NCBI GenBank assembly: GCA_949751835.1
Contig: CATKHK010000118.1
Span: forward strand, 49,469-113,468
Direction of reading: 5' to 3'
Length of the DNA: 64,000 bases
Source: Blepharisma japonicum
Lineage: Eukaryota; Ciliophora; Heterotrichea; Heterotrichida; Blepharismidae
The stretch's first letter is position 1. The number at the start of each line of letters is the position of its first letter. Shown piece after piece: positions 1 through 64,000 of the stretch. The notes under the pieces were generated by a model, which saw nothing but the letters and a program-made list of their open reading frames with translations, ran no database searches and was not told the origin of the DNA. The position numbers were made by a program, and so were the translations under genes.

Positions 1-138
1 TACAATAAAAAATCAGCTCAAATGTTTGGAGATGAAAGGGAAAAATTTATGTGTTCTGTCAGGGAATTATATATAGATCTTAGTAAGAGACTATGAATCT
101 TTAGATCTTCTTTTGAGTTAGAAGATAAAGAATGCTAA
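1..138 (+). pseudogene. 3' end of a small duplicated ORF, cut by window edge
   Basis: Coding-like tail that matches the ORF at 1501-1707 closely over about 100 bases. Relative to that copy it lacks two bases near position 92, so its C-terminus is read in another frame and runs on to a TAA at 136-138. No domain is recognised. It forms the left edge of the tandem duplication that also contains the phosphatase genes. It is either a decayed copy or a variant C-terminus. Confidence 0.35.
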
Positions 139-151
139 GCTAAAAATATGG

Positions 152-1402
152 TTAGTTGAATTTAAGTGCTTTGAGTTGTTTAATAAAGCCTTTGTTTGGA
201 TTAATACATAATCTTTTTGATTTAACCATTCCATATGCAAAATCAAAGCTAGAGTCGGTATACTTCATCAAATAAGCAATAGCGATTGCAGCACTTCTTG
301 AAATTCCCATATAACAGTGTACAAGAACTCTCTGGCCTTCAGATACGGATTGCTCTATAAAATCTAATGCTTCTTCAAGGTTTTGAGTGATGTCTTCTGC
401 TTCGTTATCTTTCAGTTTTAGATGAAAATAGGTGAATCCAGGAAGCAACTCAACATTTTCTTTATCCAAAACTCTTACTATATTTTTTATATGAGCTTCA
501 GCTAGCCACTCTTTGTTTGTTGCTGCCTTAGCACTACCAAGGAATACTTCAGGCCAAACCTCGTCCATGTAATTTTTATACCTAAATCCATTTCAAATGC
601 CTCTTGATATATAGTCTGCTGAAGTATGTAGTATATATTCGCCAATAGGTAAATCGTTTTCGAAATTAGCTTCAAATATCATCTTATAGACCCCAAAAAA
701 GCCTGAGTCTCGTCTTTCAATGGTTCCAGGTCCTCACCTTTTCCCATTCTGAAAATTTCCTGAATATTTTCACCCAGGATACTTATGTCATAAGTTTTTC
801 CCATAGAATCTCCCATTCTGATAAGTCCCAGGGTACTTTGGTCCAAGTCCATTATCTCCAATTAAAAAGTTTCCTTTAAAATCAGGACCGTCCATAAAAA
901 TTTGCTCCCCATAGCCAGATTGTAAATCGTTTTCAAAGTTTCCTTCATAATGAATCTCTCCCTCATCTAAAATTCCATGTCCACATTTTAAATCGTTTTT
1001 TCATTCTCCCTTATATTTATTACCATTCCAATAAGTCATTTCTCCATTCCCATGCTTTTGACCAAATTTCCATTCTCCAACATATATTCCATTTTCTATA
1101 TTGATCATTCTTCCTTCTCCATGCAATTTACCATCTTCTCAAGACCCTTCACAAATGCAATTAAAAGATAGCATAACTCCACATCCAAAAAGATTATTAT
1201 TTTCATCTGTTTCCCCATAGAAAATCTTTTGGTCGCTACAAATAGGTCTAGGTCGTATTGTTCCCTCAAAGTCATCAAGTTTAAAATACATTCCAGACTT
1301 CTCCAATTCTTCAAAAATTTTGCTATGAAGTTGATTTGAAAAAGTGTCTTTGAAGGTCTGAAAATCTGTAAATAGCCTTATCTCGGGTGTTTGATATTGC
1401 AT
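152..1402 (-). CDS. MORN-repeat / dual-specificity phosphatase fusion protein, 416 aa
   Basis: With TGA read as Trp a single frame runs from the ATG at 1402 to TAA at 152. Residues about 86-250 are MORN repeats (YVGEWKFGQKHGNG, YKGEWKNDLKCGHG and similar), a motif that usually tethers proteins to membranes or scaffolds. Residues about 279-416 are a dual-specificity protein phosphatase domain: the P-loop HCYMGISRS has the nucleophile Cys363 and Arg369, and the likely general acid is Asp332 in KLKDNEAED. It should therefore be an active protein phosphatase targeted by its MORN part. The first 85 residues match nothing I know. A second, decayed copy lies at 1737-2815. The MORN plus DUSP pairing is unusual as far as I know. 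The catalytic motif is seen directly; localisation is inference. Confidence 0.85.
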
Positions 1403-1500
1403 AATATTAATTATTTTGATTTTATTTTAAAATCAAAATTTAAGCTAGATCTTTGATATTTGATAAGCCAAGCATTTTTTTATATATTTCAAGATCTAAT

Positions 1501-1707
1501 ATGCTTAAGCATATCAAAGCATACCTCATCAGAGCTTTTTATAAGGCTAAGTGTCTAGAAGTTTCATTTAATAGATTAAAGAATATAACAAAAAAATCAG
1601 CTCAAATGTTTGGAGATGAAAGGGAAATATTTATGTGTTCTGTCATGGAATTATATATAGATCTTTTAGTCAGAGACTATGAATCTTTGGATCGTCTTTT
1701 GAATTAG
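1501..1707 (+). CDS. small hypothetical ORF, 68 aa
   Basis: A 68-codon frame from the ATG at 1501 to TAG at 1707, rich in Lys and Leu and probably helical. The frame stays open upstream to 1453 without another ATG. Its 3' half is repeated at the window start (1-138), inside the tandem duplication. It converges on the decayed phosphatase copy 30 bases downstream. No family recognised. It may be a fragment of a larger gene that was caught up in the duplication. Confidence 0.35.
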   Translation: MLKHIKAYLIRAFYKAKCLEVSFNRLKNITKKSAQMFGDEREIFMCSVMELYIDLLVRDYESLDRLLN

Positions 1708-1736
1708 AAGATAAAGAATGCTAAGCTAAAAAATGG

Positions 1737-2815
1737 TTAGTTGAATTTAAGTGCTTTGAGTTGTTTAATAAAGCCTTTGTTTGGATTAATACATAATCTC
1801 TTTGATTTAACCTTTTCATATGCAAAATCAAAGTTAGATTCGGTATACTTCATCAAATAAGCAATAACGACTGCAGCACTTCTTGAAATTCCCATATAAC
1901 AGTGTACAAGAACTCTCTGGAAATGAGATACGGCTTGCTCTATAAACTCTAATGCTTCTTCTAGGTTTTGAGTGATGTCTTCTGCTTCGTTACCTTTCAG
2001 TTTTAGATGAAAATAGGTGAATCCAGGAAGCAACTCAACATTTTCTTTATCCAAAACTCTTAGTCAAGGGAGAAAGGAGCAAACTATTCTATTAAAATAA
2101 TTATTAATTATACATTAAATTATCTTGAGCCCTTAAACTTTCGTGTAATCAAAAAAGCGGTAATTTTCTCAAAAATTCAGTCTTTCTCTCTATCTTGCTA
2201 TTTCGGATCAAGAATGAGTAAGTATTTTCAACCTGGAGTAAAATGAGGAATATTCATGATTATTCTTTCATATTTAAATCATCTTTATACTCTGGACAGT
2301 CCATAAAAATTTGTTCTCCATAACCAGATTGTAAATCGTTTTCGAAATTTCCTTGGTAATGTGTTTCCCTTCATCTAAAATTCTATATCCACTTTTTAAG
2401 TCACTTTTCACTCTCCATCATCCTTATTTCCGTTCCAATAAGTCATTGTTCCTTTTCCATACTTTTGGCCAAAATTTCACTCACCGATGTATATTCCATT
2501 TTCAGTGTCAACCATTCTCCCTTTTGCTATGCAATTTTCCGCTTTCCCACGATCTTTCACAAATGCATTTAAAAGACAGCATAATTCCATATCCAAAGGG
2601 GCTGATTTTTTCATCGGTTTCTCCATAAAAAGCATTTTGGTCGCAACAAAAAGGTCCTCATCATACAATACCTTCCAGGTCATCAGCTTTAAAATACATT
2701 CCATCCTTTTCTAATTTCTCAAAAATTTTTATCACAAATTCCACTAGAAAAAGCCTCTTTAAACCTCTGAAAATTTATAAATAAGCTTATATCTATCACT
2801 TCTTTATTCCATTAA
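1737..2815 (-). pseudogene. decayed duplicate of the MORN/DUSP phosphatase gene
   Basis: The phosphatase half (about 1737-2063) is nearly identical to 152-480 and keeps HCYMGISRS, but the general-acid Asp of the intact copy is Gly here (KLKGNEAED). Upstream, the part encoding the domain junction is missing and is replaced by about 215 bases of unrelated AT-rich DNA (about 2064-2280). The MORN half (about 2280-2815) has at least two frameshifts, near 2535 and 2405, and lacks a clear start. This is a dead copy of the gene at 152-1402; a short phosphatase fragment could still be transcribed. Confidence 0.8.
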
Positions 2816-6172: not shown

Positions 6173-9100
6173 ATGCTTGCTTCTTATATTATCCTCTTCT
6201 GTTTTTCATCAGCACTTGGACTAGAAATTTCATGAATTCCAAGCACAAGATCTCCTCCATCTTCAAGGCAATATTCAACTATGGACTATTTCCCATCAAA
6301 TAATTCATTAGTTATTTTTGGAGGATTTGACACAGATTCTTTGACTTCTTATAATGATCTATGAATGTTCAGCTTTACTTCTAATACTTGGCAAATACTC
6401 TCTACAACGGCAAATATCCTTCCAGGTGATTTTTATATAGATCCACGTTACTCTTCAGCTTCTTTTGCAGACGATATTAAAAGCATTTTTTACATATTTG
6501 GAGGAAGAACTTCCAACGGTCCCCAAAATGATTTATGAATGTTTTCTTTGAAATATTTTATGGTATAATTTATGTAGTGAACAAGTGTTACAACAACTGG
6601 ACCTTTTATATACCCACGATACCTTATGGCATATACAAAATATTATGAGCAAAATACCTTAATGTTCGCTATATTTGGCGGTACTGCGACATTTGCTGAG
6701 GATAATAATTTATATGTGTATGAATTATTTAGATTAAATACAACTTCTTTTGCATGGGTAATTATGCCTCAAAATGGAGATGTGCCTCCAAGAATGCATG
6801 GTGCTAATCTTTTATATAAAAACGGATTCTTTTATCTATTAGGAGGGTATAATACAAATTTTGAAAATCCTTGATTTTATGTATATAATGTTGAGGAAAA
6901 AAGGTGAAGCAATATATCGAATAACAGTAGACATTATATAGAAAAAATATACACTCAAAGAACATTAGCCGGATCCGCAATAAATGAAAATTTTATATAT
7001 TTAATTTCTGGCTGGTCAAATTTAAATGAAAATACACTTTCTGATGTGTATCGAGTAGATTTAAACGACCCAAGTTATTCTTGGGAGCTTGAAAACACAA
7101 TTGGAAATTACAAAAAGAGCTCGTTTGCGTTTTCCACAAATGATAGAACAATATATATGTTTGCTGGATATGATAACAAAGACTCCACAAATGATCTAGC
7201 ATTATTAGATTTATCAGTTTCTCCTATCAAAATTACAGCAATTACTGAGCCTTTTTCAGAGCCAAAAGAGCGTATGAAACATACTCTGGAAGTTGTTTCT
7301 GGTAAACTTTATTTATTTGGCGGAGATAGTTATGGAGAAAAATTAAATGATTTGTGGTCTTTTGATTTAAATAAAAATATATGGTCAAATATCAATGTGA
7401 ATGGATCATTGCCTCCAGCAAGATCAGACCATGCGGCTAGTTCACAAGGAAATGTTATGGTAATTTTTGGAGGTAAAGGGCAATCAAATTTATTAAATGA
7501 TATACAAACTTTTAATTTCATCTCAAATACCTGGACTGAGGTTTCTCCATCTACTTCAGCAATGCCAAGCCCCAGATATGGATCTTGTGTTGTTTATTCC
7601 TCCCCATTTATATTTATATATGGTGGCCACACATCTACAGGCTACTCTTCAGAACTATGAAAATTCCATACAGGCACAAACACATATGAATTACTTGGCA
7701 AAGGGCCAATAGAATTAGAGTCGCCACGATGCTCAGCTTCTAACTACACATTTTACGTTATGTTTGGAAAAACAAATAATCAGAGACCTGAAGGGTCAAT
7801 TTATTCTTATGATCTTGTCAGAGATACTTGGACTGTTAATTTTAATGCAAGTTTAGGCAATAAAAAACAGTCAGATGGCCCTGTATTGAAAATAAATCAA
7901 AATATTCTGGTATTTGGAGGACAATCGTGAGGAATAAACCAAGAGCTTGATGTGTTTTCTATCAATCTAGATAGTCAAGAGTACACTGACTATTCAAGCT
8001 TGCCAACTTATACATTTTATTCAGCATTCGCGTATTTTGGGAATAATTTGTATGTCCATGGAGGAGGGTTTTCAACAGGAATTTTCTTAAGGCCAAATGT
8101 TCCTATAAAAGATTTTTTTATGATAAATTTGAATCAAACATGTAAAAATAATGAATGCTTGTGCAGTCCTGGAAGCTATAAATATGAGAATACATGCAAA
8201 GTATGCCCAACTGGTTCTTATTCAAGTATATATAGAGCTTCTTCTTGTGACTTATGCCCTATAGGCACCTATAGTTTTTTTGAGGGTGGTAATACATTCC
8301 AAGAGTGCTACCCATGCGCCGAAGGTACTTATAATGATCTCATTGGACAAGCTGTCTGCAAAATCTGTCCAGTAAATTATGATTGCCCAGTCGGCACTGT
8401 CAAGCCTGCAAATAAAGTATACTCATTAGGAGATGTATCAATTCAGCCTGATTCTTATGATTCATCAAGTGATAAGCAAGACTCTTTAGTTATTATTGCT
8501 GAAGGGTTTTTGATATTTTTTGTGGTAGTTTTTATACTTATTGTGGCCACTTCAAAAAAGGCCAGAAACCATTTAAAAAAATTTGACGTTTACAAGACAC
8601 AGCACAATTACAAAGAAAATAACTACATGATCCTGGTCAAAACAAGGCTCGGAGGATTTTATACAATTGCTTTTTATACATTGGCAGCGTTATTAGTTTT
8701 TATAACTCTAACAACTTATGCATTCGAAAACATCAGTGAGTCTAAAGGGCTAGTTCCTTTAATTACAGCACAAAATGAAGTTTCTTCATTTTCTGCAGAT
8801 TTAACATTTTTAGTGACTTTTTCTGGATATGGAGGCTCTTGTGTGGCTGATGACAATGGGACATGTTCAAGGCTAATATCATTTTACTCAGAAAATATCA
8901 TAGCTGAAAACGAACCTGGAGATTTAAAATGCGTGCTAACTGATAGCCAGTATTGCCGGCTAGGATATTTTTGCAAAGATTGTGTAATAGCCACAGGAGC
9001 TCAATTTAGTATTGTCCTGTCTGAGCAGCTTAGTTATAGCTCAACTATTTATGTGAATATTACATCTTCTTCATCAATTCCAAATGAAATCAGTAGTATC

Positions 9101-29714: not shown

Positions 29715-32700
29715 TTATACTTTAGGGATAATAGCTATCATTAATTGCAATTTATAAAGTCTTTTAATCTCTCTCGAAAGATAAGGCAAATAATAAAAAA
29801 AATACAAAATCATAGAACATAGCGCATACATTGTCACTGCATAGATAATATAATTCAATTTATCAGATATCTTATTTTCAGAAGACTTGTTAATAATATC
29901 AAAATTTGTAGCCATAGCCTGCTGTATAATTGCATATTCTCTAGTTATTTTCATCATTTCTTCCATTTTATCATCTTCAATATATTTTAATGCTAGAGAG
30001 TCAAATGTCAATAAATTATTCAATCATAGCCCTCCATAGTTATACTGATAATTTGGGGCACTTGAATGCTCATAAAGCTTGGCTTTTAGACTATGAGACA
30101 TATAATGCATATAATTTATAAGCTCGGCATCTGACAGTTTAAATAAATCTACTGATTTATCAAGTTCTGTGTCAGGATTTTCATATATGATACTTTCAGA
30201 AAATATTGTTTGAAGACCGATAGAAGTATTATATATTGCAGATTCTCTTGATCAGAAATTTATAGTTGGGACAAGTGCTCGCCTATGGATATAATTTGTT
30301 AATAATTTAGGTCTTTCATGTAAAAGGTCTTCGCAAGAAGAAAAAAGAACAGCATGAACTGCTATATAATAAACTGCTGTAGTTAGTAAAAATATGCTTA
30401 ATCGCAATATAAACTTTTGGTTTTCTTTAAATTTCAGTTTTTCTTCTGGTTCTTTATTTCTATAGACAGAATCAACTTCATCTTGATTATAATCATTTCC
30501 ATGGATTGAGCAAAGTCTTTCTAAACAGCTTCTTTTCAGCTCGAAATAGGCAGAATGAGTAATTGACTTAATAAAATTTCATAAAACATTATATTTTTTG
30601 CTTATATAAAAAATATAATAAACAAGGATTATTGTACAAAAACCGAGGACACAAATTCCTACTACCATAAGGATAGTTATTGTATTAGAAATTTCTGAAA
30701 TTCTATTAATTTCACACCTCACAAGATTTTTTAAAGAAGAATTTGTCTGCTGGTATACGTTTTCTAGTCCATTTGAAATCAAATATCTCATTTCATCGTC
30801 AAAAGTTTCATTATTTTTAGCTTTTATTACCAATTTATTTGCCTATATGAAAAATACTGTATTAATTTCATCCTGAATTTCATCAAGTAAATTTGTATAT
30901 ATAATCTCTTCTTTATTACTTGCTGTTCATGATGCCATTATATCATTTGATACAATATCAGAACTTGGACAATAGCTTCACTCATGGGCATCATCCCTTA
31001 GAGCTTGATGATAACTAGACATTTCACTAATGGCGTCATTCATTAAATCAAGATTTTCGTTAAAATCAATATTTGTTTGAATACTAAAATAAATTGAACG
31101 AGAAATTTCAGCCATAGACGCCAGTCTATACAGAATAATAGCTAAATCTTTAAAGGAATTAAAAGACTTTGAATGGTTCACTGCTTCTGATATATATACA
31201 GAAATTGCGATATTGGTGGATATAACTATTATCATCTATATATTTTTTACCGAAATAAATAAAATTCATTTAAATCTTTTTAAAGATGTCTCGGATTTTA
31301 CTATGGTAGATTTCCCACGAGCTTAATAAAAATTACTTTTGGCGACTGAAGAAGAGTTGCTTTGTAAAATTGATGCAGTTATTGATCTATCATCAATGTG
31401 GCCGAATTTCTTTTTTTTAGCAATTTCGTCAATTCGGGAAAGTTCAATGGTTTGAGAAATATCAGTGTTTTCTTCACGGGTTAAGTGAACTCGTTTTTTT
31501 ATTGTGGGAGAATCAGTTAGGCCAGGAGGAAGGTCTATATTTGTATTTAAATTATCTGAGTCAAAAAAAGATTCTTGACGTTTAAAATATTCTTGCTGAT
31601 TATAGTCAAGCCCTTTATTTCACTGCTTTATTTCAGTTGGATCAGTAATTAACAAAATATAATGAATTCTAGTTTTTGAATAATTTTTTATACAGTGAAC
31701 TGCAGCTATATCAATTCCATTAGGAGAAATCATTTCCGGCTCATATATCGTCATAGCCTCAAAATTAATTTCTGGGAGAATTTTTTGGATATATTGGCAG
31801 TTGATAGGTATTTTTTTAAAATTTAAATATTCTAAAAAATGTGAGCTATGATGATATATAAACCCATTTTCTGATATAAGTGCAACCTGTCTTAGGGACT
31901 GCACTATTTTTAAAGTTGCCATAAAGTATAAATATCCATTAAATGCAGTCAATTTTATCAACACTTGGCAGTCAACCAAAAAGCCCATTTGATTTAGAAA
32001 AAATAAAGCATTGGGTGTAGGCACTTCAGTTGATTTACAATTTTCAATTCATTCTGTCATATAGTAGCGGTGGGAATCTTGATAAGGGTTAGGGATATAT
32101 TGCCATATTTTATTACCAGTAGCGCTATGAACATTTTCTTCTAATATTTCCGCTGCCTTTTGATTAATATACACAATCTCCCCAAGGTCTTTTTTGCTAG
32201 CTGATATCAGAATAATTCCATTTTCATCATCAAATCTTGTCAATCTCTTTTCACCTTTCGACTTAAAATCAGGATTTTTAAAACTGTTTCGCTTATTCAT
32301 GATTAAATTTCCAAATTGGTGCTCATTAAGTATATTCATTAAGAAAGTGCCATACAACTCAAAAGCTTTAACGTGCTTGTAAGCTATTAAGGACATATAT
32401 TCCTCTTTAAGTTTTTCTATTAATTTTGAAACTTTTTGTGCTAAAGATTCGAGCTTGCTGAGGCGTGGCTTTTTAGATGTAATTTCATTCCATAAGGATA
32501 TTAATAGACAACATAGCTTTTCATCATCTTTTTCAACTTCTTCTAAATCAATTAAATAGAATAAAAAATCAGTTTCTATGCAAAAATTTTCATTTTTATT
32601 GCTATCTAATCATTTTTTAATCCTTCATTCTTGGATAACCCCATCCATACTAGCTTTAGCATGTGTCATTCTAGCAAACTTTATTCTAGCTAACCCTAAA

Positions 32701-33941
32701 TCTTTTATTGTATGAATACAATAATTAACTTCTCAGGCGACCAATAATTTTTCAATAAAAAATATTTGCTTTTTGTAAATTTCAATAAACTCTTCTACTA
32801 CCCTTACATTAAATTTCCCAGTCCTATCAATCAGCATATGCCTCATATTCAGTTCAAAATTATGCTGATTTGATACTTCTTTCGGAGAATTTGCATAACT
32901 TCTTGATAGTTTGCTAATATAATATATGTTTGCAACAAATATTAACGGAAATATTACAATACTAAGCAGCACCACAACCCCTGCATCATCAATTCATAAT
33001 GCTAATAAAAAAAAAGCATCAAAAATTGAAATTCCAAGCATGACGGAAATTTTTAAAGCATCCACAAAAGGGTTAAAATAAGAATTACATGTAAACATAA
33101 GGTAAGATAAAAAGCCTGTAGAAATCATAATATAAAAGTGGTATAAGGTTATGTTAGAAATCCCTGCATAAACATAAATAATAGCTATAGCTGTTTTATG
33201 GCCGAGGACTTTTACATCAATTCCAGTGTCAGCACGTGCTCGGATATTTCGTTCAGCAAATGAGTGGCAAATATCAGCAGTAAAAAGTTCGTGAGTAATT
33301 GCAAAAAAATATAATAAAAATGCATCAATAAGTCCAACTATGCCTCAAAAAACTGAGACCGGCTGCATATTTAAGGTTCCATGAGAGTTATATTCATCTA
33401 TTGATGATTCAGGGTAAAATGAATATTTAATAACAATTAAATTTATCATCAAAGCTGGCAGATATCCAATTGTCGACAAAAATTCTAAAATTTTACCGGA
33501 CAAATAAATCAGGTTTAGAGAGACATTGCGCTTTCAATAACACATCAAAGATGTTACACACAAAGAGATAAAGCCAATTGTAATTAAAAATGAAGATCCA
33601 TAAAAACAATGATGTAAACCTTTCAAATCCCCGCAAATATTGTCGAATCTAAAATAGCTAATAATATACCAGATCAATGAATAACGATCTCACTCAGATA
33701 TTGTCACTCCAGGATGTAAAACTAAGGTTAATAACTGAAGGCAATAAATTGAATTCATTGAAATCTCAAAACTCATTTGAACAGAATATTTCATTTTGTA
33801 TCGGTATTTTGGCTTAAAATAAGCATTAAAAGCTTCAAAAATTGCATCTTTTACTTGAGATCTTAAAGAGCGTGTATGAAGCTTTCTGACTTTATTTCCT
33901 GATAAGTCTTGCACATTGAAATCAGATATAAAATTAACCAT
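29715..33941 (-). CDS. large multi-TM PAS protein (tmcB-like), copy A, about 1393 aa
   Basis: A single frame from the ATG at 33941 to TAA at 29715 once TGA is Trp and three 15-nt introns are removed. Residues 1-350 hold about eight to ten transmembrane helices. A helical linker (about 350-540) leads to a PAS-like domain at about 567-690 (GEIVYINQKAAEILEENV, GNKIWQYIPNPY, FFLNQMGFLVDCQVLI). After a Ser-rich loop come further transmembrane helices (WILFISMIIVISTNIAI and three more) around luminal segments. This plan matches the ciliate-expanded family annotated as tiny-macrocyst-protein-B-like, known from sequence only. PAS domains sense small ligands, light or redox; the signal here is unknown. 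Confidence 0.85.
30843..30857 (-). other. 15-nt intron, copy A intron 3
   Basis: GTATTTTTCATATAG on the minus strand, phase 0, ending in an in-frame TAG. Same place as 35608-35622 in copy B. Confidence 0.93.
31236..31250 (-). other. 15-nt intron, copy A intron 2
   Basis: GTAAAAAATATATAG on the minus strand, phase 0, with in-frame TAG; splicing completes the transmembrane helix WILFIS-MIIVIST. Homologous to 36010-36024. Confidence 0.93.
31322..31336 (-). other. 15-nt intron, copy A intron 1
   Basis: GTAATTTTTATTAAG on the minus strand, containing a stop in frame; splicing gives SSSVAK-TRGKSTIV. Homologous to 36096-36110. Confidence 0.9.
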
Positions 33942-34455: not shown

Positions 34456-35607
34456 TTATGCCTTTGAATTTTTCACACTTCCAGGTATTAAATACATAAT
34501 ATCCTGGATTTTCAGCAAATTTTTGACCTCGGTATTGATATATGGTAAATAATATAAAAAAAATAAAAATACTGAAATCAATGAATATGCAACAATTGCA
34601 TATATAATATAATTCAGCTGTCCTATAATTAAATCTTGTGAACTTCCGTCGATTAATTCGAAATTAGTCGTCATTGCTTGTTCTAGAATTTGAATACCAC
34701 TTCCAAACGCTGTTAACTTATATAATGCTCTTTCATCATAATCATCTATATATATTTCCGAATCATGAAGCAAAATATTTGTATATCAATATGAGCCATA
34801 AAGCAAATTTTTATTTATTACAAAATTCCCAGTCTCAAAAAGTTTTTCTAATAATTCATTAGACATAAAACTTATATTTTCTATTAATTGCCGATTTGCA
34901 TCATTAAAATCATGGATCACTATTCTTGCCTTCTCATGAGCATTTTTAAAAAAAGTCATGTTTCCTGTCTTTCCAATAGTTGATAAATTTATATTTGATA
35001 AGATTGCTTCACAGGTCCAGAAATCTATTAAAGGTATCAATGCTCTTCTATTTAAATAATTTCTTAATAAATTTGGCCTTGTAATTAAATAGTCTTCACA
35101 TTTTGGGTACAAGCCAAAATTGACTATAAAAAAATAGATAATGGTGAATGAAGTAAAAATTCCAAGCCTCAGTAAATATCTTTTGCTTATGTTGAATTTT
35201 AATGCAATGAGCGTATTTTTGCTTCGATTATAAGCATCTTGCTCTTCAGTATTATAATCAATCCCATGGACAACTGACAATCTATCCAAGCAAGCTCTTT
35301 TAAGCTCAAAATACGACAAATGGGTTAAATGCTTAATGAACTCTCATAAAGCATTATATTTTCGGCTGATTATAAAAATGAACATCGCTAATATTGAAAA
35401 GCAAACTCCTAATATAATGGCACTGATAATAAATAGCATAGAAATCATTTCACTAATTGTATAAATCATATCAATTTCACACTGAACTAAGCCGCTTATA
35501 GTATTATTAGTAGCAGTATAGAGATTTCCAACCCCATTGATTATAACGAAGTCTACTTCTTTAGGAGAATGTATTAATTTTTCAGCATTGGCTATTATTG
35601 TTTTTGT

Positions 35608-35622
35608 CTATTTATGTTTTAC
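35608..35622 (-). other. 15-nt intron, copy B intron 3
   Basis: GTAAAACATAAATAG on the minus strand with in-frame stops; same site as 30843-30857. Confidence 0.92.
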
Positions 35623-36009
35623 ATTCGAAATATATTCTTGAAGAGCATCATATAAATTTGTTTTTACTATTTTTGGAGAATTATCAAATCTTCATATAGA
35701 AATAAGATTTTCCACCACAACTCTTGAGCTATCACAATAGCTTCATGTTGACAAATTTGATAAAATCCCATTATGAGAAGTGTCTAGCTCTGACAATGAA
35801 ACTTTTATTGGTGCAAGGACTTCATCAATGTATTGCCGCTGCTCTGGTGAATCAATGCAAAAATCTATTTTCCATGCATTTTCTGCTATATGGGCTAAGT
35901 TAAAAAGGATATTTCCAAGATCACTAAATGTGTCTATTGATCTTGAATGGTTAACAGCGTTGGTTATATAAATTGCAATAGCTATATTTGTAGTAATAAC
36001 AACTAAAAC

Positions 36010-36024
36010 CTATATAATATTTAC
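36010..36024 (-). other. 15-nt intron, copy B intron 2
   Basis: GTAAATATTATATAG on the minus strand with in-frame TAG; splicing joins FKLVLFFS to VLVVITT. Confidence 0.93.
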
Positions 36025-36095
36025 AGAAAAAAATAAAACCAACTTAAACTTTTTTAAAATCAATTCGGACTTTTTGACTATGGTTTTTCCATGCG

Positions 36096-36110
36096 CTGCA
36101 TGTTTTTTAC
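36096..36110 (-). other. 15-nt intron, copy B intron 1
   Basis: GTAAAAAACATGCAG on the minus strand. It has no in-frame stop, but its position matches intron 1 of copy A and splicing gives EKK-AHGKTIVKK. Confidence 0.75.
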
Positions 36111-36371
36111 CTTTTTTCTCTGTAGAAGAACTATCATGTGTATAATGAGATGATGACATAGTAATTGATTTTTCTTCACTTGCTCATTTTTCTTTTGGAT
36201 TATCAGATGACCTAAACTTCCCAGTTGATATCTCAGTGCTCATATCACGAGATCCATCTCTATTTAAATTTTTAAAATTAAACCTCACTTTTTCTTTCTC
36301 GGAAAAAGACTTTTCTGAGTGAACTGACTCAAAATGCTCCAATTCAGCAAAAGAGTCTATCTATCTATTAA

Positions 36372-37427
36372 TTATAACGATGCAAGCATCGTTGCAGCCC
36401 TTATGGGCTTTTTAAATTTAAATTTTTGAAATTTCTTGCTCAAATTTTGGTTCAAACGTCTCAATTTTCTGCCCGATTTTCGGCTTAGTTTCCAGCTGCA
36501 TTTTCGGCTTAATTTTTGGCTCGACTTCTTGCTCAATTTCTGGCTCGATTTCTTGCTCAACTTCTGGCTTAATTTCTGGCTCATTTTCTGGCTCAATCTC
36601 TGGCTTGATTTCTGGCTCAATTTCTGTCTCAATTTCTGGCATAATTTCTGGCTCAATTTCTGGCTCAACTTCTGGCTCAATTCCTGTCTCAATTCCTGGC
36701 TCGATTTCTGGCTTGATTTTTGGCTCAATTTCTGTCTCAGCTTATGGCTCAATTTCTTGTTAAATGTCCGGCTAATCTTCTGGTTCAATTTTGACTCAAA
36801 TTTGGGTCCGCCTTTTGGTTTAGTTTTTGGCTTAATTTCCTGCTCAATTTTCGACTCAATTTCTGCCTGAATTTTTGGCCCAAATCTTGGCTCAACATAC
36901 GGCTCAGCATTCAGCTCAGTTTTCGATTCAATTTTTGGCTCAATTTTTGGCTCAATTCCAGGCCCATTTTTAGCCACACATTTTAGTCCTTTGTAGCCTG
37001 TGCAAACTAGCTCCACTTCAATCCTTTTCATGTCTCCTGGCTCAACTAAGATGACCTCCTCATTTCCAAGCACTTCACCTTCCAGTCCACCAATACTTGC
37101 CAGCAATTCTTGCTCACGATCTCTTTCATTACTCTTACTGCCTTCATTGCCCTCGACAATTAGAAGTTCAAGAGCTTGTTCAAAGTCCCCTTCAGTCAGT
37201 TTTAATACTTCTTTCGCTTCGTTTTCTCCAAATCCCAAGTCTTCAAGAATTTGGATGTCCATTTCCAATACATCAGATGCTTCCAATCCATATAGTTCAT
37301 CCTCATAGTCTTCATAATCGCTTAAATAGTCGTAGTGGTAAATTTCATCATCAGAATTCTCAAAACTGCATAACCCTGGGTGTTCAGTCCAGGCAGCCGT
37401 GTTTCTCTTGAACCCTTTTGAATCCAT
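36372..37427 (-). CDS. UBA-domain protein with KLSQ tetrapeptide repeats, inside the insertion, 351 aa
   Basis: ATG at 37427 to TAA at 36372, no TGA. Residues about 30-52 are acidic (YDYLSDYEDYEDELYG). Residues about 53-95 look like a UBA ubiquitin-binding domain: DIQILEDLGFGENEAKEVL followed by EGDFEQALELL, with the GF loop and Ala/Leu pattern of UBA. Then Pro/Glu/Lys repeats (EPKIEPKIE) give way to a long basic tract of KLSQ, KSSQ and similar units encoded by a 12-nt tandem repeat (about 36470-36790), and a basic tail. The clean UBA domain shows that this strand is the coding one. The protein is unlike anything else here. Confidence 0.6.
   Translation of the reverse strand: MDSKGFKRNTAAWTEHPGLCSFENSDDEIYHYDYLSDYEDYEDELYGLEASDVLEMDIQILEDLGFGENEAKEVLKLTEGDFEQALELLIVEGNEGSKSNERDREQELLASIGGLEGEVLGNEEVILVEPGDMKRIEVELVCTGYKGLKCVAKNGPGIEPKIEPKIESKTELNAEPYVEPRFGPKIQAEIESKIEQEIKPKTKPKGGPKFESKLNQKISRTFNKKLSHKLRQKLSQKSSQKSSQELRQELSQKLSQKLSQKLCQKLRQKLSQKSSQRLSQKMSQKLSQKLSKKSSQKLSKKSSQKLSRKCSWKLSRKSGRKLRRLNQNLSKKFQKFKFKKPIRAATMLASL
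36470..36790 (-). repeat. 12-nt tandem repeat array (AAATTGAGCCAG type)
   Basis: About 25 imperfect copies of a 12-base unit. Because the unit is 3n and holds no stop, long stretches stay open in more than one frame: KLSQ in the long ORF, EIEP in a second minus frame, and WLNF on the plus strand. Confidence 0.9.
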
Positions 37428-39820
37428 GAACCTGGTAAATAAAAAAAAAGTTCAGCAAAAGAGTCATTTTTTTCAAAATACTCCAGCTGTAAAATATCAT
37501 TAATTTCTAGCCATGTATCAATTTCTTTTGGATTTGTTATAAGGAGCACAAAGTGTATATCAGTTGATTTAAACCGCCTTATCCCATGAACCAATGCTAT
37601 ATCATTTTCTTTTAAAGAAAGCAGTATAGGCTCAAATAATGGGACTTGTGGTAGAATAATTTCAGGCAAAAAATCAGATAAATAATGATTTCTTATTGAT
37701 TTTGTAGGCTCTGCAATTAATTCAGCAAAACCTTCACTGTAACTATAAATAAGCCCATCTTCAGAAGTCAAAGCTATTTTTCTCGAAGTTTTAACAGCCC
37801 TAAAGGACATCATAAAATAAAGATAATTATTCAGAGCAGTCAGTCTTAATAAAATTTGGCATTCCAATAAGAAACCTTGCTGGTTTAAAAGAAATAAAGA
37901 ATTTGGCTTTTCTACCTGTGGATTTGTGCAGTTTTCAATAAATTGCTTTTCATATTCCACATGGTTTTTAGAGTACGGCAGAGGAATATAGCATGAGATT
38001 TTATTTCCCATAATTTCGAAAATTCTGCCATTTAAAATTTGTGAGCCTACATCATTGATAAATACTATCGAGCCAAAATTATCTTTATTTGCAGAAATCA
38101 AGATATTCCCATTTTGCTCTTCATATTTATTAAGCTTACTTTCATTTCTCATAAAAACATCCACCTGTTTATTTCTTCTGATTTTGTTCAAAATAGTGGA
38201 GCCTTTTTCATATTCTCTTAAAATTGTTTGTAGCAAGCTTCCATATAGCTCAAAAATTCTTTCACTTTTTATCTCAATCATAGAGTTATAGAGATTTTTT
38301 ACCTTAAAAACCAAGTCAGATGCTTCATTCATTAAAATCTCTAATCTAGAGAGCCTTGGTTTATTTGAAGTTACTTCTCCTCAGAGGTCAAGAAGTAAAG
38401 AGCATAAATGTTCATCATGATGGCGGGATACTTCAAGATCTATTAAGTAAAGTAAAAACCTTAAAACTGGGGTTTTGTCTTTGCTCTCATCAAGATATTT
38501 TTTAATCCTCCATTCTTGGATTTCTCCTTCAATACTACCTGACACATTCCCCATTTCTGCCAGCTTTATCCGAGATAAACAGTAATCTTTTATAGTGAAT
38601 GCACAATAATTTACCTCCCATGCAATAAAAAGCTTGTTTACCCTAAATTTCGGGTATTTTTTGACATTTATAAATGCATCAATAGCTATTTTTGCACTCA
38701 GCTGCGACTTATCCATTAAAAATCTCCTCAAATTCAGCTCAAACTCGTGCTGACTATTAGCAAACCCTGAAAAAATTTCTTCATTTATTGTAATTTTTCA
38801 TATTTTCATCAAAAATATCCCAAAAATTAACGGAATCGCGCATATACACAAAACTAAGGTAACAAGTGCATTATCAGTCGCAAAGCCAAATAAGAAGCTT
38901 AAAGCGACTGTAGACATGATAAAAAGCTTGGAAACTTTTATTGAGTTTACCAAAGGGTTGTAATAAGAGTTAAATTTGAAAGTTAAATAAGATAAAATAG
39001 CTGAGGAAACTGCAAAAAATGTTAGGTATCAGGAAACATTTAAGTGGCCAGCAAAAATATATAAAAATACTATAAGGGATTTAAAACAAGTAATTGTGAC
39101 GTCTAAATTTGAGTCAGAGCGTGCTTTAATATTTTTATCAGCGAATGAGTGCCGAATATCTGCTGAAAATAGTTCATAAATCAGAGTAAAAAAAAGCAGA
39201 AAAACAGCAGAAATAATGCCTAGAACTGACCCTAATAACCCTAAATCTAAATCATTAGCTGTAAGTGGCTTATACTCAATAACAGTTATATCATTTTTAA
39301 TAGAGTATTTAGTTACTATTAAAAATAGCATCATAAATGGAACAAAGCCTATTGAAGTCATAAATCCAAGAATTTCACTGGGCAAAAAAACAATAAAATT
39401 TGCAATTTTCCAGCCTCTTGTTTTCATGGCACCCATAGCTAATAACAAAAAAATGCAGACACCTAGAGTCGCTGAACTGATATAAAAAGCGATTTTCATA
39501 AACTTTAATTCGGCTATCAATGAATCAAAGCTAAAATATCCTATAAATCGCCAAAAATACTCATAATTTTTTCAGCCAGAAATATTTATATCATAGTATC
39601 ACAATAGGGAAATTATTTGAAGACAATTTATTGTATTTGTGGAAATTTCAATAACAAATTGTGTAAAAATTTTTGTTTTCAAATCAAATTTTGGCTGGAA
39701 AAAGGTCTCAAGAAAATTGATAATTGTGGATTTAACGGATTCTCAGGGAGAAGTATAGTTTAGTCCTTGTGATCTTGCTGTATAGTTGCTCTTTTTCGAC
39801 AAATCTATCTCGTCCAACAT

Positions 39821-42513: not shown

Positions 42514-43815
42514 GTAAGATTAATTATAATTAATATTAAAATTTTTGTTTAATTGATAATTAGAGAATTCATAGCAAGATAAGTTTTTATAATGCGTTTT
42601 GAATAAAAATACTTGAAAATCATAAAACAATTTTTTTGATTGCTTATCGAAAAACGCATGGCTAACTTTATCGTAAAAAAGAATCCTTACGGTGAATTAA
42701 ATATGCTAATTTTATAATACAATATATTTTAAGCGTGATTAAGTTATCATAAAATATTTCAACGGTGATATTTCAGCATTAAGAATTTAGTGCTTAAGTC
42801 CCCCATAGATTCATATTAGTGCTTTAATTGCTTTTCATTTAGCTTTTGATTAATCGCATATCTAAAATTTCTTTGTTATACTCATCAGTGCTTATTTTGA
42901 CCATTTCTTCATCAATTCTAATCAATTTTAACCTTGAACTTATCATCAGCTTCTCTGCCTGAATAAAGGCAATCCATAATATATATTAGCATAATTAAAA
43001 TATAATCAAAAGGAATTTATGATTGTTTTCTATTAAAATGATTCGCTGAATTTTTACTTTAAAAATTACATTTATTTAATATTTGGATTACTTAAATAGA
43101 TATTTTAATATAAAATAATAGGCATAAACATTTTAAAATGGAACTATTTTGTAATAAAATAATCTTAAATTAAGTTGTAATATAAAAATTTAATAAAATT
43201 ATTGAAAAATAAGTTTGATATGTACTCATGAAACTCATTCATATACGCAAATTTACAATAAGTAGAGGGAATTATATATAAGATTACTTTGGCTGTCCTA
43301 AAAATACCATACAATGGCAAATTCATGCATTTTTTATTTAATAAAATAGCTCATATTCTATTTTTGATAAATTAATTTCTATATTTTTTTATCAAGCCTC
43401 CTGAATTTGAAATTTTGTTAATTTAAACCCTGAAGCTAGAAATTCAAGCATAAAAAATTATTTAATGCAGATCATAACTTTTTCAATTTTTGGTGTTGAA
43501 AATAGTAATAAGAGTTTTTATCTAAATTTACTAAACCCAAGATATATTTTAGCATTATAAAGTTCATATCTTCTCTAGATATTAACTTTTACTTTATATT
43601 TTATCTGAATTGGGCATAAAAAAGAAAAATATAGATTAAAATGAAACGGTTAAGTCTGCTTATTTTATTATTCTGCATATAGCTTATAATAATACAAAAA
43701 TTTATTATAATTAATTAGGCCGCTCAATCATGCAATTTATTGTGATATCTATTTGAATTAATAAGACAACTTTATTCAAAAAATCCATTTATTTACTTTT
43801 AAAAAAAAAACAATT
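42514..43815. other. intergenic, AT-rich
   Basis: 1.3 kb without an ORF of coding character. The last 110 bases resemble the region just upstream of the next paralogue (about 44885-44996), so part of the promoter was duplicated with the gene. Confidence 0.55.
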
Positions 43816-44514
43816 ATGGGCTGCGTTTGTTCGAGCCGAGATGCTGATAGCAAGCTGAATGCTGAGGAAAAAATTATTAAAGCTGCTGAAGAAATGCTAG
43901 AAATAGGCAAATTAAAGGTAGATTGATATGATAAAGGCATTACTAGATTTGCAATAGACCATAAGCTGAGCGAAAAAAATTTAAAGCATGCTTATGAAGC
44001 TTTGGATTTATCAACGGAGTTTCTCGAAGACGAAACTTCACCATTGTTAAGATTTTATGAGAATTTTAAATTTATGAAAATGTATGAAATCAGAAAATTA
44101 ACATGCCTAGGTATTTGGCTTGGGAGTGACGATTTGAAGAAAAAGGCATATTGGCTATTTAAAAACTATGACAGAGACTGCTCAAATATGCTAGATGCAT
44201 TAGAAATCAAATATATGCTAGATGATATGATCAGCATAACTATAGCACTTGTTGAATTCGCACAATTTGTTTACCCTCATAAATCAATAATGCTACAAGC
44301 ATACTTAAGAAAGATAAGAAGAAGCAAGGAAATCGTCAAAAAATACTTAATTCTTCTAATGTTTAGAGGAGGGACAGTCCATGAAATCAGTTTAGATAAT
44401 TTTCAGGGATGTTTTAATGATTCAACAATAAAAAAACTGCTTTCAGATCAAGGATTTAGAGAGCTGCTAATGGAATGCAGTGAGCTTCAAGCCAAAGCAA
44501 ATTTAATATGCTAA
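43816..44514 (+). CDS. MGC-anchored single EF-hand protein, family member 1, 232 aa
   Basis: ATG at 43816 to TAA at 44514 with a TGA-Trp near 43925. It begins MGCVCSS, a textbook dual acylation signal (Gly2 myristoylation, Cys3/Cys5 palmitoylation), so it should sit on a membrane. A single canonical EF-hand loop DRDCSNMLDALE starts at Asp119 with ligands at loop positions 1, 3, 5, 9 and 12. Downstream is a conserved segment (ALVEFAQFVYPHKSIML) and a C-terminal motif DQGFRELLMECS shared by all members. No catalytic domain; likely a membrane-bound Ca2+ sensor. First of six tandem relatives up to 51008. The family is not one I recognise. Confidence 0.8.
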
Positions 44515-44996
44515 TAAAAGAAGTTAAAATAATATATAAATAATAAAAATTCGAAATAAATTTTAGATTTCGGTTAGGAGACAAATTTATCTGAATCAAA
44601 AAAATTTGCAATTTTTGAAATATTTTAAATTTGCTCACCCCAGTTAAGAGTGAATAAAAAAGAGCAGAAAGATTTAAATGTTGGAGAAATTAACTTCTTT
44701 ATAATATTTATTGTTTAAATATAATCAAAAATTATTTTACTTAGCTTTTTTAAAAATTTTAACAGCTTAAAATTAAGATTTATCTATTTAATAATATTTT
44801 TTTTTTATTTATTAGGAGCCAATCTTTTCTTTTTTGCTAAGTCTTTTATTTTATTAATATACATATAATTAGACAAAAAATTATTATATTCAAATATGCC
44901 TTTAAATCATATAATTCATCGCTATTTAATATTTTGAATTAATAAGGCAACTTTATTAATAAAATCCATTTATTTCATTTTTTAAATAATTAATAA
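44515..44996. other. intergenic between paralogues
   Basis: AT-rich; its 3' part repeats the sequence upstream of 43816 (for example AATCCATTTATTT before the ATG). Confidence 0.55.
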
Positions 44997-45697
44997 ATGG
45001 GTTGCGTTTGCTCTAGTCGAGACTCTGATAGCATGTTAAATGCTGAGGAAAAATTCATTAAAGCTGCTGAAGAAATGCTAGAAATAGGCAAATTAAAGGT
45101 AGAATGGTACGATAAAGGTATTTCTAGATTTGCAATAGAACAAAAGCTGAGCGAAAAAAATTTTAAACATGCTTATGAAGCTTTGGACTTATCAACTGAA
45201 TTTCTCAACGACAATACTTCACCATTGTTCAGATTTTATGAGAATTTTAAACTCATGAAGGCTACGAAATCAGAAAATTAGCATGCCTAGGTGTTTGGCT
45301 TGGAAATGACGATTGGAAGGAAAAAGCATACTGACTATTTAAAAACTACGATAGGAACTGCTCAAATAGGCTAGATGCCATAGAAATCAGATATATGCTA
45401 GAAGATATGACTAAAATAGCTCTAGCGCTTGTTGAATTCGCACAATTTGTTTACCCTCATAAATCAATAATGCTACAAGCGTACTTAAGAAAACTAAAAA
45501 GAAGCAAAGGATTGCTGAAAAAGTACTTAAAACTTCTAATATTTAGAGGAGAGACAATTCATGAAATCAGTTTCAATGAGTTTCTCGAATGCCTAGCAGA
45601 TTCAACAATAAAAAAATTGATTTCAGATCAAGGATTTAGGGAGCTGCTGATAGAATGCAGCGAGCTTCAAGCTCAAGCAAATTTAGTATGCCAATAA
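44997..45697 (+). pseudogene. MGC-anchored EF-hand protein, member 2, frameshifted
   Basis: Very close to member 1 from the start MGCVCSSRDSDS onward, but one base is missing near 45260 (ATGAAGGCTACGAAATC against ATGAAAATGTATGAAATC). The first frame ends at TAG 45281; the rest stays clean in the next frame to TAA at 45697, including the EF loop DRNCSNRLDAIE and the C-terminal motif DQGFRELLIECS. The downstream frame has not decayed, so this is a very recent mutation, a sequencing error, or a site of ribosomal frameshifting. Confidence 0.75.
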
Positions 45698-47007
45698 TAA
45701 TTAATTCATCTAATGTACGATTAGTAATTCATTTACTTTATCATGATCTACGTTGTCCATTTTAGCATTAATTCTTATACCAATAAATATTAATATTAAA
45801 AATCGAAATAAATTTTGGGTTTTGATTAAGTGAAAAATTTAAAAAATTTGGAAAAATTTTAAATTCACTGACTCCACTAGTAAAAAGAGTGGAAAATTTA
45901 GTTGCTGGAGAAAAAGTCTTTAGGGTATTCTAAATATACTAAAAAAATTATTTCACTTAGCTAATTTTAAAAGTTTTTAAGATTTATTTTAATTTATCAG
46001 CAGTTATCGCCCCTTAAGAAATCAATCTTTTCTTATTTTTATAATTTTTTCATTTTTTCGATTTATAATGCCAGGCAATTCCTGTATTTAATCATCACAA
46101 TCTCCTCAAATACCAAATTAGCCCAACTCTGCTACACTTTCCCAGCCAAATCTTTTATTAAAATCTTCTAATAAGATTTATATATAAACTTGTTTAAAAA
46201 TTAAACCCAGGAGTTATAGATATTTTGTTAATAATTTAATTGTCAAACTATTAGAATGATATGGAAAATTGAACATCTATAGTACGAAATTCTCAAATTT
46301 ATCAATAAAAGAATTTTAGCAAAGAGATAAACTGATAATACTTTAGAAAATTAATTCTTTGGTATAACAAGTATATATTGATAATAATCTTAAAAGATCC
46401 AAATGCTTGCACTTAGCTTTTCATATTTTTATCAGCCTATAAATATATGAAACCATTTTACAATTTTTTGGTCTTGCTGCGCCTTTATTCTTTTTAATAA
46501 AAGTTCAATGTTTAAGCAAGAATAGAAATGAATAGAATAAATAAAATAGATACTCACTTCCCGCGAACAAAATTTTTTTCGCTCAATAAATTTCTTGAAA
46601 AATTAAACCCAAGAGTTAGATTTTTATATAATAATTTAATTGTCAATTATATATATGAATGATATGCAGAATTGAGTACATCTAGCTTGAACATTGTTCA
46701 AGCTGATCGATAAAAGAATTTTAACAAATAAATAAACTGATAATACTTATGGGCAAACATTTGGACCTTTTTAAGATTATTACCTTGATAAAATTGCTAT
46801 ACCAAAGAATTAATTGTCTAAGAGAGTCAACTTTATAATTATTTAGTCATTTTTTTTTATTCTCAATGGAATGCCGTTTTAGGAAAAATTAAGCGCATTT
46901 TTTAACTATAAATAAAAGGGTCTGAAAGCGCACGCTTATTTGATATTCATTGAAAAATACATATCTTTTTGATAATTAATTTTTGCTTAATTATTAAAAA
47001 AAAGCAC
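45698..47007. repeat. intergenic with a direct repeat of about 150 bases
   Basis: About 46195-46345 recurs imperfectly at about 46596-46755 (shared AATTAAACCCA-GAGTTA, TAATTTAATTGTCAA and TCGATAAAAGAATTTTA-like runs), offset about 400 bases. No gene seen. Confidence 0.6.
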
Positions 47008-52752: not shown

Positions 52753-53082
52753 ATGCATCTAGTTTTTTTAAATAATATCTACGATATAAGTAAAAAACTT
52801 GGCAAGCCTTGTCTATCTAAAATTCAAAAAAAATTTAATAAATCTCCTATATATACAGTCTCCTCCCTCTTTGACGGCGACAAGAAAAGGTCTATAGTAT
52901 TAAGGGCCAGCACAGAGTGCTGGCTGTTAAAGAAATATGATATTCATTTGAGGAATTTTTCGGGGTGGGTTTCAGGCCGGACTAGCTCTACTTTTCTCCC
53001 TATACATAGATGAGATATCAACAGCACAACACTAGCAGGTACTTCTAGTAAACCATCCTACTGCATGAAAAGGCGGAGGTAG
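52753..53082 (+). CDS. doubtful ORF, 109 aa
   Basis: From the first ATG at 52753 to TAG at 53082 with one TGA-Trp. Contains IYDISKKLGKPCLSKIQKK and a Ser/Thr-rich end. No family recognised. It lies in a region full of gene fragments, so it may be a relic too. Confidence 0.3.
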
Positions 53083-60402: not shown

Positions 60403-60600
60403 AAACCTAGTTGTCTTTAATTATGATATAAAAATAAAGTAAATTCATTAGTTTTATAAATTATAATTATATACAATATCTCTTTAAGTTCCTATTTCAA
60501 TTGCATGATTTAGGAAAAATAATAAATTTTTCAATAAGATGCACTTATTTTTTTTAACGGGATTATTACAGCTTCTTAAATTTTGAGCCAGATCATATTA
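60403..60600 (+). repeat. direct repeat, copy 1 (copy 2 at 63810-64000)
   Basis: Starts AAACCTAG; shared runs include TTATGATATAAAAAT, AGTAAATTCATTA, TTTTCAATAAGATGCACTTATTTTTT (26 bases, spaced) and CTTCTTAAATTT-like ends. It lies just upstream of the TMCO4-type gene. Confidence 0.8.
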
Positions 60601-63817: not shown

Positions 63818-64000
63818 ATTTTGATTATGATATAAAAATGAAGTAAATTCATTAATTTTATAAATTATGTAAGTATACATGATATCTGCTTAACATTCCT
63901 CTTTCAATTTTATGATTAGGAAAATAATCAAATATTTTCAATAAGATGCACTTATTTTTTGGGTAGGATTATTACTTTGAGAAGGCAGCCTCTTAAATTT
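63810..64000 (+). repeat. direct repeat, copy 2, runs to window end
   Basis: Second copy of 60403-60600. By analogy another TMCO4-type gene may begin about 70 bases beyond the window end. Confidence 0.75.

Follow-up and report, generated by a model that had tools for sequence, protein, structure and literature searches.

A TmcB-like gene of Blepharisma japonicum is split by 1.1 kb of DNA that is probably a non-autonomous retroposed element or mRNA copy, placed there by a resident LINE of the RTE/RTE-X type and retained in the soma. The insert lies between the copies of a 15-bp direct repeat, carries an open reading frame (ORF) with a UBA domain, and shows at one end a short tandem repeat beside two hairpins (Table 1; the window is the whole 64-kb stretch of DNA analysed). 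For this reading we infer an RNA intermediate, a partner LINE, and the orientation and fixation of the insertion. The initial annotation had offered two explanations of the locus. It favoured a germline version of the gene that programmed excision would repair, and named as the alternative an insertion accompanied by a long duplication of its target; the alternative is the better supported of the two.

Table 1. Positions of the interrupted gene, its insert and associated features in the window
Feature	Position	Strand	Remarks
Neighbouring paralogue, uninterrupted	29715..33941	-	1,393 aa, three 15-nt introns
Interrupted gene, 3' part	34456..36357	-	contains three 15-nt introns
Left copy of 15-bp direct repeat	36343..36357		exact 15-mer match
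(ATAG)3 tandem tail, 3' end of insert	36356..36368	-	overlaps the 15-bp repeat by 2 nt
Insert, 1,093 bp	36358..37450	-	GC 0.397
Insert ORF, 351 codons	36372..37427	-	acidic N-terminus, UBA (residues 58-89), then a 12-bp repeat (about 45 units)
Two adjacent hairpins, 3' end of insert (ORF sense)	36376..36408	-	from folding of window segments
12-bp tandem repeat tract within insert ORF	36420..36980		in the second part, another frame encodes E-P-E-I repeats
A9 run	37441..37449	+	separated by one base from right repeat copy; in ORF sense, a T9 at the 5' end
Right copy of 15-bp direct repeat	37451..37465		proposed target-site duplication
Interrupted TmcB-like gene, 5' part	37466..39820	-	ATG at 39820

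Structure of the interrupted gene

Joining the flanks through a single 15-mer reproduced the 4,257 bp, divisible by three, that had been reported for the gene after removal of one repeat unit. The joined frame is open, which requires two of its introns, while the third, predicted at position 2602 of that frame, is placed by comparison with the paralogue. The frame described initially as 1419 codons stands, but that figure includes the introns and the stop, and without the three 15-nt introns the product is 1,403 aa long. Left unjoined, the frame of the 5' part runs into the insert and meets a stop at 37322. Neither half of the gene contains a stop or a frameshift, which suggests that the insertion is either recent or tolerated. 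The label PAS given to the gene finds no support in Pfam, which detects no PAS there: the N-terminal half matches only TPR_TmcB (PF25474, the family that we call TmcB-like) at 25.8 bits, slightly under the curated cut-off of 27 bits, whereas the neighbouring paralogue matches the same family of membrane proteins at 49.7 bits. A search of viral_contigs with the N-terminal half gave 16 pattern matches and no confirmed relatives.

Comparison with the neighbour bore out two further claims, that homology continues on both sides of the junction (310 of 783 aligned residues identical upstream, 223 of 602 downstream) and that all three introns are conserved, as they fall in the same alignment columns (872, 896 and 1025) and in the same phases (1, 0 and 0). 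Over the first 60 residues past the junction, identity drops to 8 of 59, and because the junction falls in this poorly conserved linker, homology alone cannot set the breakpoint to the base. With the insert removed, the linker is 106 codons long and that of the neighbour 103; the first intron contributes 5 codons to each count. Between the two genes dN is 0.60 and dS 2.0, a saturated value, and the dN/dS of the pair is therefore only roughly informative.

The perfect 15-bp direct repeat around 1.1 kb was found as first described, with 1,093 bp between its copies, and the 15-mer is present exactly twice in the 64-kb window. A repeat of this kind is not rare per se: when 100 sequences were resampled from the dinucleotide frequencies of the window, complex repeats of at least 15 bp at a spacing of 0.2–6 kb were present at least once in 76 (mean number 1.36). 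The weight falls on position, both copies lying at the gene interruption, where they form a perfect 15-bp duplication at both junctions, in keeping with the variable-length target-site duplication of LINE-mediated (target-primed) insertion. An exact duplication together with a frame-true empty site is not expected of an assembly chimera, which we regard as extremely improbable.

The insert and its open reading frame

The insert is atypical for the window in both GC content and codon usage, which we count in favour of retroposition. Its GC content was matched by none of 3,037 same-length segments elsewhere in the window, and that of its non-repeat part was reached by 4 of 3,099 segments of 460 nt. 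The UBA part of the ORF has a codon-usage score of 0.075, compared with 0.240 ± 0.055 (lowest 0.089) for 29 window ORFs, an uncurated reference hand-picked among long ORFs. Moreover, an off frame of the UBA part scores higher than the ORF frame (0.170), as would not be expected of a typical host gene.

When three frames of the insert were searched against Pfam, the UBA domain alone scored above cut-off (E 1.2e-5, 25.5 bits versus a cut-off of 22.4), with no match to a reverse transcriptase or endonuclease, the two encoded activities that would mark an autonomous RTE-X LINE. NCBIfam gave no match above cut-off, and phmmer against solved structures gave weak matches only, the best of them (E 0.04) to a UBA domain. 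For the UBA part, 15 pattern matches in viral_contigs and 123 in genome_contigs yielded no confirmed relatives, and a literature search found no paper linking a UBA domain, ORF1 and a non-LTR retrotransposon. In 25 units of the 12-bp repeat tract, synonymous/nonsynonymous counts in the ORF frame were 17/28 observed versus 14.4/30.4 expected, with no clear departure from expectation in any frame; the counts therefore give no sign that the ORF has been maintained, which we hold against retroposition.

The ORF fills the insert nearly end to end, with 23 nt before the ATG and 14 nt after the stop. With retrogenes the insert shares an ORF that has no introns and is set, with very little flanking sequence, between target duplications; it differs from them in that, read in ORF sense, it does not end in poly(A). 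The same compactness bears on capture at the DNA level, in which a staggered double-strand break would have taken up a genomic fragment with a small gene, by copying or by ligation, and its 15-nt overhangs would have been filled in. Such an event would carry a complete small ORF and require no LINE partner, and the A9/T9 run could then be ordinary upstream DNA, as a T10 is also present about 185 nt ahead of the ATG of the interrupted gene itself. On the other hand, a captured fragment would have had to end within 23 and 14 nt of the ORF ends, with a tandem tail right at the junction, and a T run of 9 lies within 60 nt of the first in-frame ATG in none of 27 window ORFs (the longest is 7). We consider DNA capture unlikely.

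The ends of the insert and the proposed mechanism

The (ATAG)3 tail is one of two tandem runs in the 64-kb window (period 3–7, at least 3 units, at least 12 nt and at least 3 letters), and it supplies the poly(A) or short tandem repeat that LINE-mediated insertion is expected to leave at one end, beside the duplication. The double hairpin next to it belongs to the 45-nt fold ranked sixth, level with the fifth, in the list of separate folds, with better folds in 10 of 25,582 folding windows, and has the lowest energy among the 16 double-hairpin clusters listed, each by its first window. At the same time, the 118-nt 3' end of the insert does not fold significantly better than shuffled sequences (z -1.39, 24 of 200 shuffles being as good), which counts against retroposition. 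No further copy of the hairpin sequences is present in the window, and a 22-base pattern made from the 3' hairpins had no match in viral_contigs.

A long target duplication, a short tandem 3' tail other than poly(A) and the absence of inverted repeats are shared with LINEs of the RTE/RTE-X (APE) type and with their non-autonomous partners, and the 3' hairpins may be a further common trait; unlike these LINEs, the insert has no reverse transcriptase or endonuclease match and carries a UBA-repeat ORF. Non-A 3' repeats were found in 6 of 6 green-algal RTEX families, and LINEs and SINEs of the stringent type often have a 3' stem-loop, as PMC3747384 reports. LINE and LINE/RTE-X families have copies in the soma of B. 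stoltei (PMC9942856). A scan of 33 window ORF pieces, mostly covering ORFs of 200 aa or more, gave no match to a second copy of the insert or to a partner LINE.

In the mechanism that we propose, an mRNA copy, or a LINE derivative with one ORF, would have entered by target-primed reverse transcription on RTE/RTE-X-type LINE machinery, in the orientation of the UBA ORF (minus strand). The endonuclease would have nicked the plus strand after ...AAAAGAGTC, the freed DNA end would have primed on the (AUAG)n tail of the RNA beside the hairpin pair, and the 15-bp duplication would have arisen from a second, staggered cut; the inserted copy would then have been kept in the somatic genome, leaving the TmcB-like gene split. 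The overlap between tail and repeat is what microhomology priming would give. Against retroposition, the proposed nick site is presumably not a canonical L1 site.

Also against it, the proposed 3' end has no poly(A), and the A9 run is found at the opposite end, in antisense. The run, one base from the right repeat copy, would suit RNA retroposed in the opposite orientation, so that its poly(A) came to lie on the right, or an insertion with 5' inversion of which only the A-tail is plus-oriented, and there are 8 such separate sites in the 64 kb. However, A9/T9 runs are not enriched but fall below shuffle expectation (12 matches versus a shuffle mean of 29), an RNA from the plus strand would carry the UBA ORF in antisense, and neither the tandem tail nor the hairpins at the opposite end would be accounted for. 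We therefore give very little credence to the opposite orientation.

Excision and the apparent somatic character of the window

The window reads as somatic sequence, with Blepharisma-like code and introns (UGA as Trp, 15-nt introns). In eight long window ORFs (16.1 kb), about 15.7 internal eliminated sequences (IESs) would be expected in germline DNA from the published density, with the IES number of PMC9942856 and published genome sizes, and the Poisson probability of finding none is about 1.6e-7, a figure that is overstated because the ORFs were selected for length. Telomere repeats of B. stoltei were not found in the window, which is uninformative.

The insert resembles Blepharisma IESs in that it is bounded by repeats, lies inside coding sequence and restores the frame when removed, and a programmed or partially excised IES would be missing from some or all somatic copies, in which the gene would work; either the 15-bp repeat or TA ends immediately internal to it would serve for excision. 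Joining through one 15-mer is in frame, both halves of the gene are undamaged, and joining at the TA pair 36358/37436, just inside the repeat, would bring back the frame too, leaving a scar of 30 bp. Moreover, 6,566 Blepharisma IESs are flanked by non-TA repeats, and some retroelements in the soma show signs of partial excision (PMC9942856). On the other hand, the segment is present in apparently somatic sequence, its GC of 0.397 compares with 33.3% reported for IESs, and the frame is restored by only 2 of 45 TA pairs near the ends (a raw count, without chance expectation). Terminal inverted repeats, which are common but not universal in Blepharisma IESs, are absent, the ends reading TATCTATC and, reverse-complemented, CTTTTTTT, with different first bases. 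The 15-bp repeat contains no TA, while about three quarters of IESs have a TA-containing terminal direct repeat (PMC9942856). Of the germline form with programmed excision first suggested, the restored frame thus holds, whereas the somatic-type window and the missing TA and inverted repeats leave it weakly supported, and we judge an IES to be unlikely. A combination of the two, in which a LINE-mobilised coding retroposon kept in a somatic gene is excised from a fraction of copies via the TA ends 36358/37436 inside its target duplication, with the frame-true 30-bp scar, seems very unlikely; if true, such a TA-excised retroposon would be a retroelement caught turning into an IES.

Significance

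The somatic genomes of ciliates are generally regarded as cleared of most insertions in genes. A retroposon-like insertion, as the LINE-type end structure of the insert suggests, would be more ordinary than the programmed gene repair first suggested. The retroposition reading predicts specifically what the 3' ends of Blepharisma LINEs should look like. If the insert is indeed a recent retroposon in a gene of somatic-type sequence, then an insert that has no ends suited to excision can remain and disrupt a gene, in agreement with a conjecture in PMC9942856.

The interrupted gene and its frame after joining

The initial annotation had described a perfect 15-bp direct repeat around the insert in a membrane-protein gene, now read as TmcB-like, and this 15-mer indeed occurs exactly twice in the window. 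Joining the flanks through one copy yields 4,257 bp in frame, as had been claimed, and 1,403 aa once three introns are taken out; the proposed conservation of those introns was borne out, with alignment columns and phases equal to those of the uninterrupted neighbouring paralogue for all three. After removal, the linker comes within three codons of the neighbour's in length; at the same time, because the junction lies in this poorly conserved linker, the breakpoint can be placed only roughly from homology alone. In a window like this one, chance alone commonly produces a repeat of this length at some place, and we therefore place weight on the position of the 15-mer, not on its existence. In the unjoined sequence, the 5' part of the gene runs on into the insert as far as a stop codon.

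Coordinates of features in the window
Feature	Position	Strand	Remarks
Interrupted gene	34456-39820	minus	
Neighbouring paralogue	29715-33941	minus	uninterrupted
15-mer copies	36343-36357, 37451-37465		
Insert	36358-37450		1,093 bp
Stop reached by unjoined gene	37322		
TA pair	36358/37436		
12-bp repeat tract	36420-36980		
Perfect hairpin	52906-52924		GCCAGCACAGAGTGCTGGC; strongest 45-nt fold of the window
Tandem duplication around MORN/dual-specificity-phosphatase gene	1-2760		common blocks up to 69 bp; spacings ~1,585 and ~1,408 bp
Tandemly duplicated gene, EF-hand matches below cut-off	43752-45640		spacing ~1,181 bp
Short direct duplication	46196-46750		spacing ~400 bp
Matching blocks of 16, 14, 13 and 26 bp	60420-60553, 63824-63960		3.4 kb apart, either side of a 785-codon DUF726 ORF; possibly a duplicated boundary

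Somatic-type sequence and a possible excision

The window reads as somatic in character. At the published load of 39,799 IESs (germline segments subject to programmed excision; number from part of PMC9942856) on 41 Mb, ~15.7 would be expected in a germline copy of eight long ORFs totalling 16.1 kb, with P(none) ~1.6e-7 under a Poisson model, a figure overstated because the ORFs were chosen for length and assumed IES-free. The window holds ordinary genes of eukaryotic type (F-actin capping protein, WD40, EF-hand, kelch and others). UGA encodes tryptophan, with Trp/Trp pairing in 10 of the 21 paralogue alignment columns that have TGA in either sequence, and introns are 15 nt long in both paralogues; for B. 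stoltei, passages of PMC9942806 give UGA as tryptophan and introns of predominantly 15 and 16 bp. We take the window to be probably Blepharisma DNA.

The insert could possibly be excised as an IES, for example via the TA pair, which would restore the frame with a 30-bp scar. Close to the insert ends, 45 TA pairs were tried, of which two restore the frame; we count this as a possibility, not as evidence. According to parts of PMC9942856, Blepharisma IESs mostly have TA repeats and inverted repeats, unlike the insert, whose 15-mer lacks TA and whose ends lack inverted repeats, although non-TA repeats occur at 6,566 of these IESs.

Ends and content of the insert

Read in ORF sense, the insert has at its 3' end a pair of neighbouring hairpins followed by (ATAG)3. 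This tail reaches 2 nt into the 15-mer and is one of only two tandem runs in 64 kb (period 3-7, at least three units, 12 nt, three letters). The hairpin pair lies within a 45-nt fold that comes sixth, level with the fifth, in the list of separate folds from both strands, and the pair has the lowest energy among the 16 double-hairpin clusters listed, each represented by its first window only; the whole 118-nt 3' end does not fold significantly better than shuffles (z -1.39; 24/200 as good). The opposite end bears T9, which is A9 in plus-strand reading. The window has 8 sites of this kind, and its A9 runs are rarer than in shuffles. Among the 27 window ORFs examined, none has a comparable T run 60 nt or less from the first in-frame ATG.

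A 351-codon ORF occupies the minus strand of the insert. Its start lies 23 nt in from one end and its stop 14 nt short of the other, and it contains a UBA domain that clears the Pfam cut-off and, after this, the long 12-bp repeat tract. Roughly one third into the tract, the reading frame switches: the second part carries on the E-P-K/E-I reading in another frame, with three stops near the switch and host-like codon usage in the E-P-E-I frame (0.269) but not in the ORF frame (-0.079). This switch suggests that the ORF may be frame-shifted or decaying, substitution counts being undecided between readings. Among 3,037 segments of equal length taken from outside the insert, none reached its GC of 0.397; the non-repeat part is less extreme (0.406), since 4 of 3,099 stretches 460 nt long reach that value.

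Retroposition as the favoured reading

Where stringent LINEs insert by target priming, the duplications are long and variable, the 3' tail is a non-A tandem repeat, hairpins lie at the 3' end and inverted repeats are absent; the insert resembles this pattern. Passages of PMC3747384 report non-A 3' repeats in six of the six green-algal RTEX families listed, and describe stem-loops at the 3' ends of stringent LINEs and SINEs. The 2-nt overlap of tail and 15-mer would be consistent with priming through the pairing of two bases. Given this overlap, the end anatomy and the LINE literature, we favour a retroposed non-autonomous element or mRNA copy, its molecular steps being read from anatomy; its unusual composition points more to an element than to an mRNA copy. 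Pfam scans of three insert frames and 30 other window ORF pieces gave no reverse transcriptase or LINE endonuclease match.

In B. stoltei, parts of PMC9942856 place LINE and LINE/RTE-X families in the somatic as well as the germline genome, with some loci apparently partly excised, and conjecture that foreign DNA without suitable excision sites may be retained. Without removal of the insert, the product of the interrupted gene would lack its C-terminal part.
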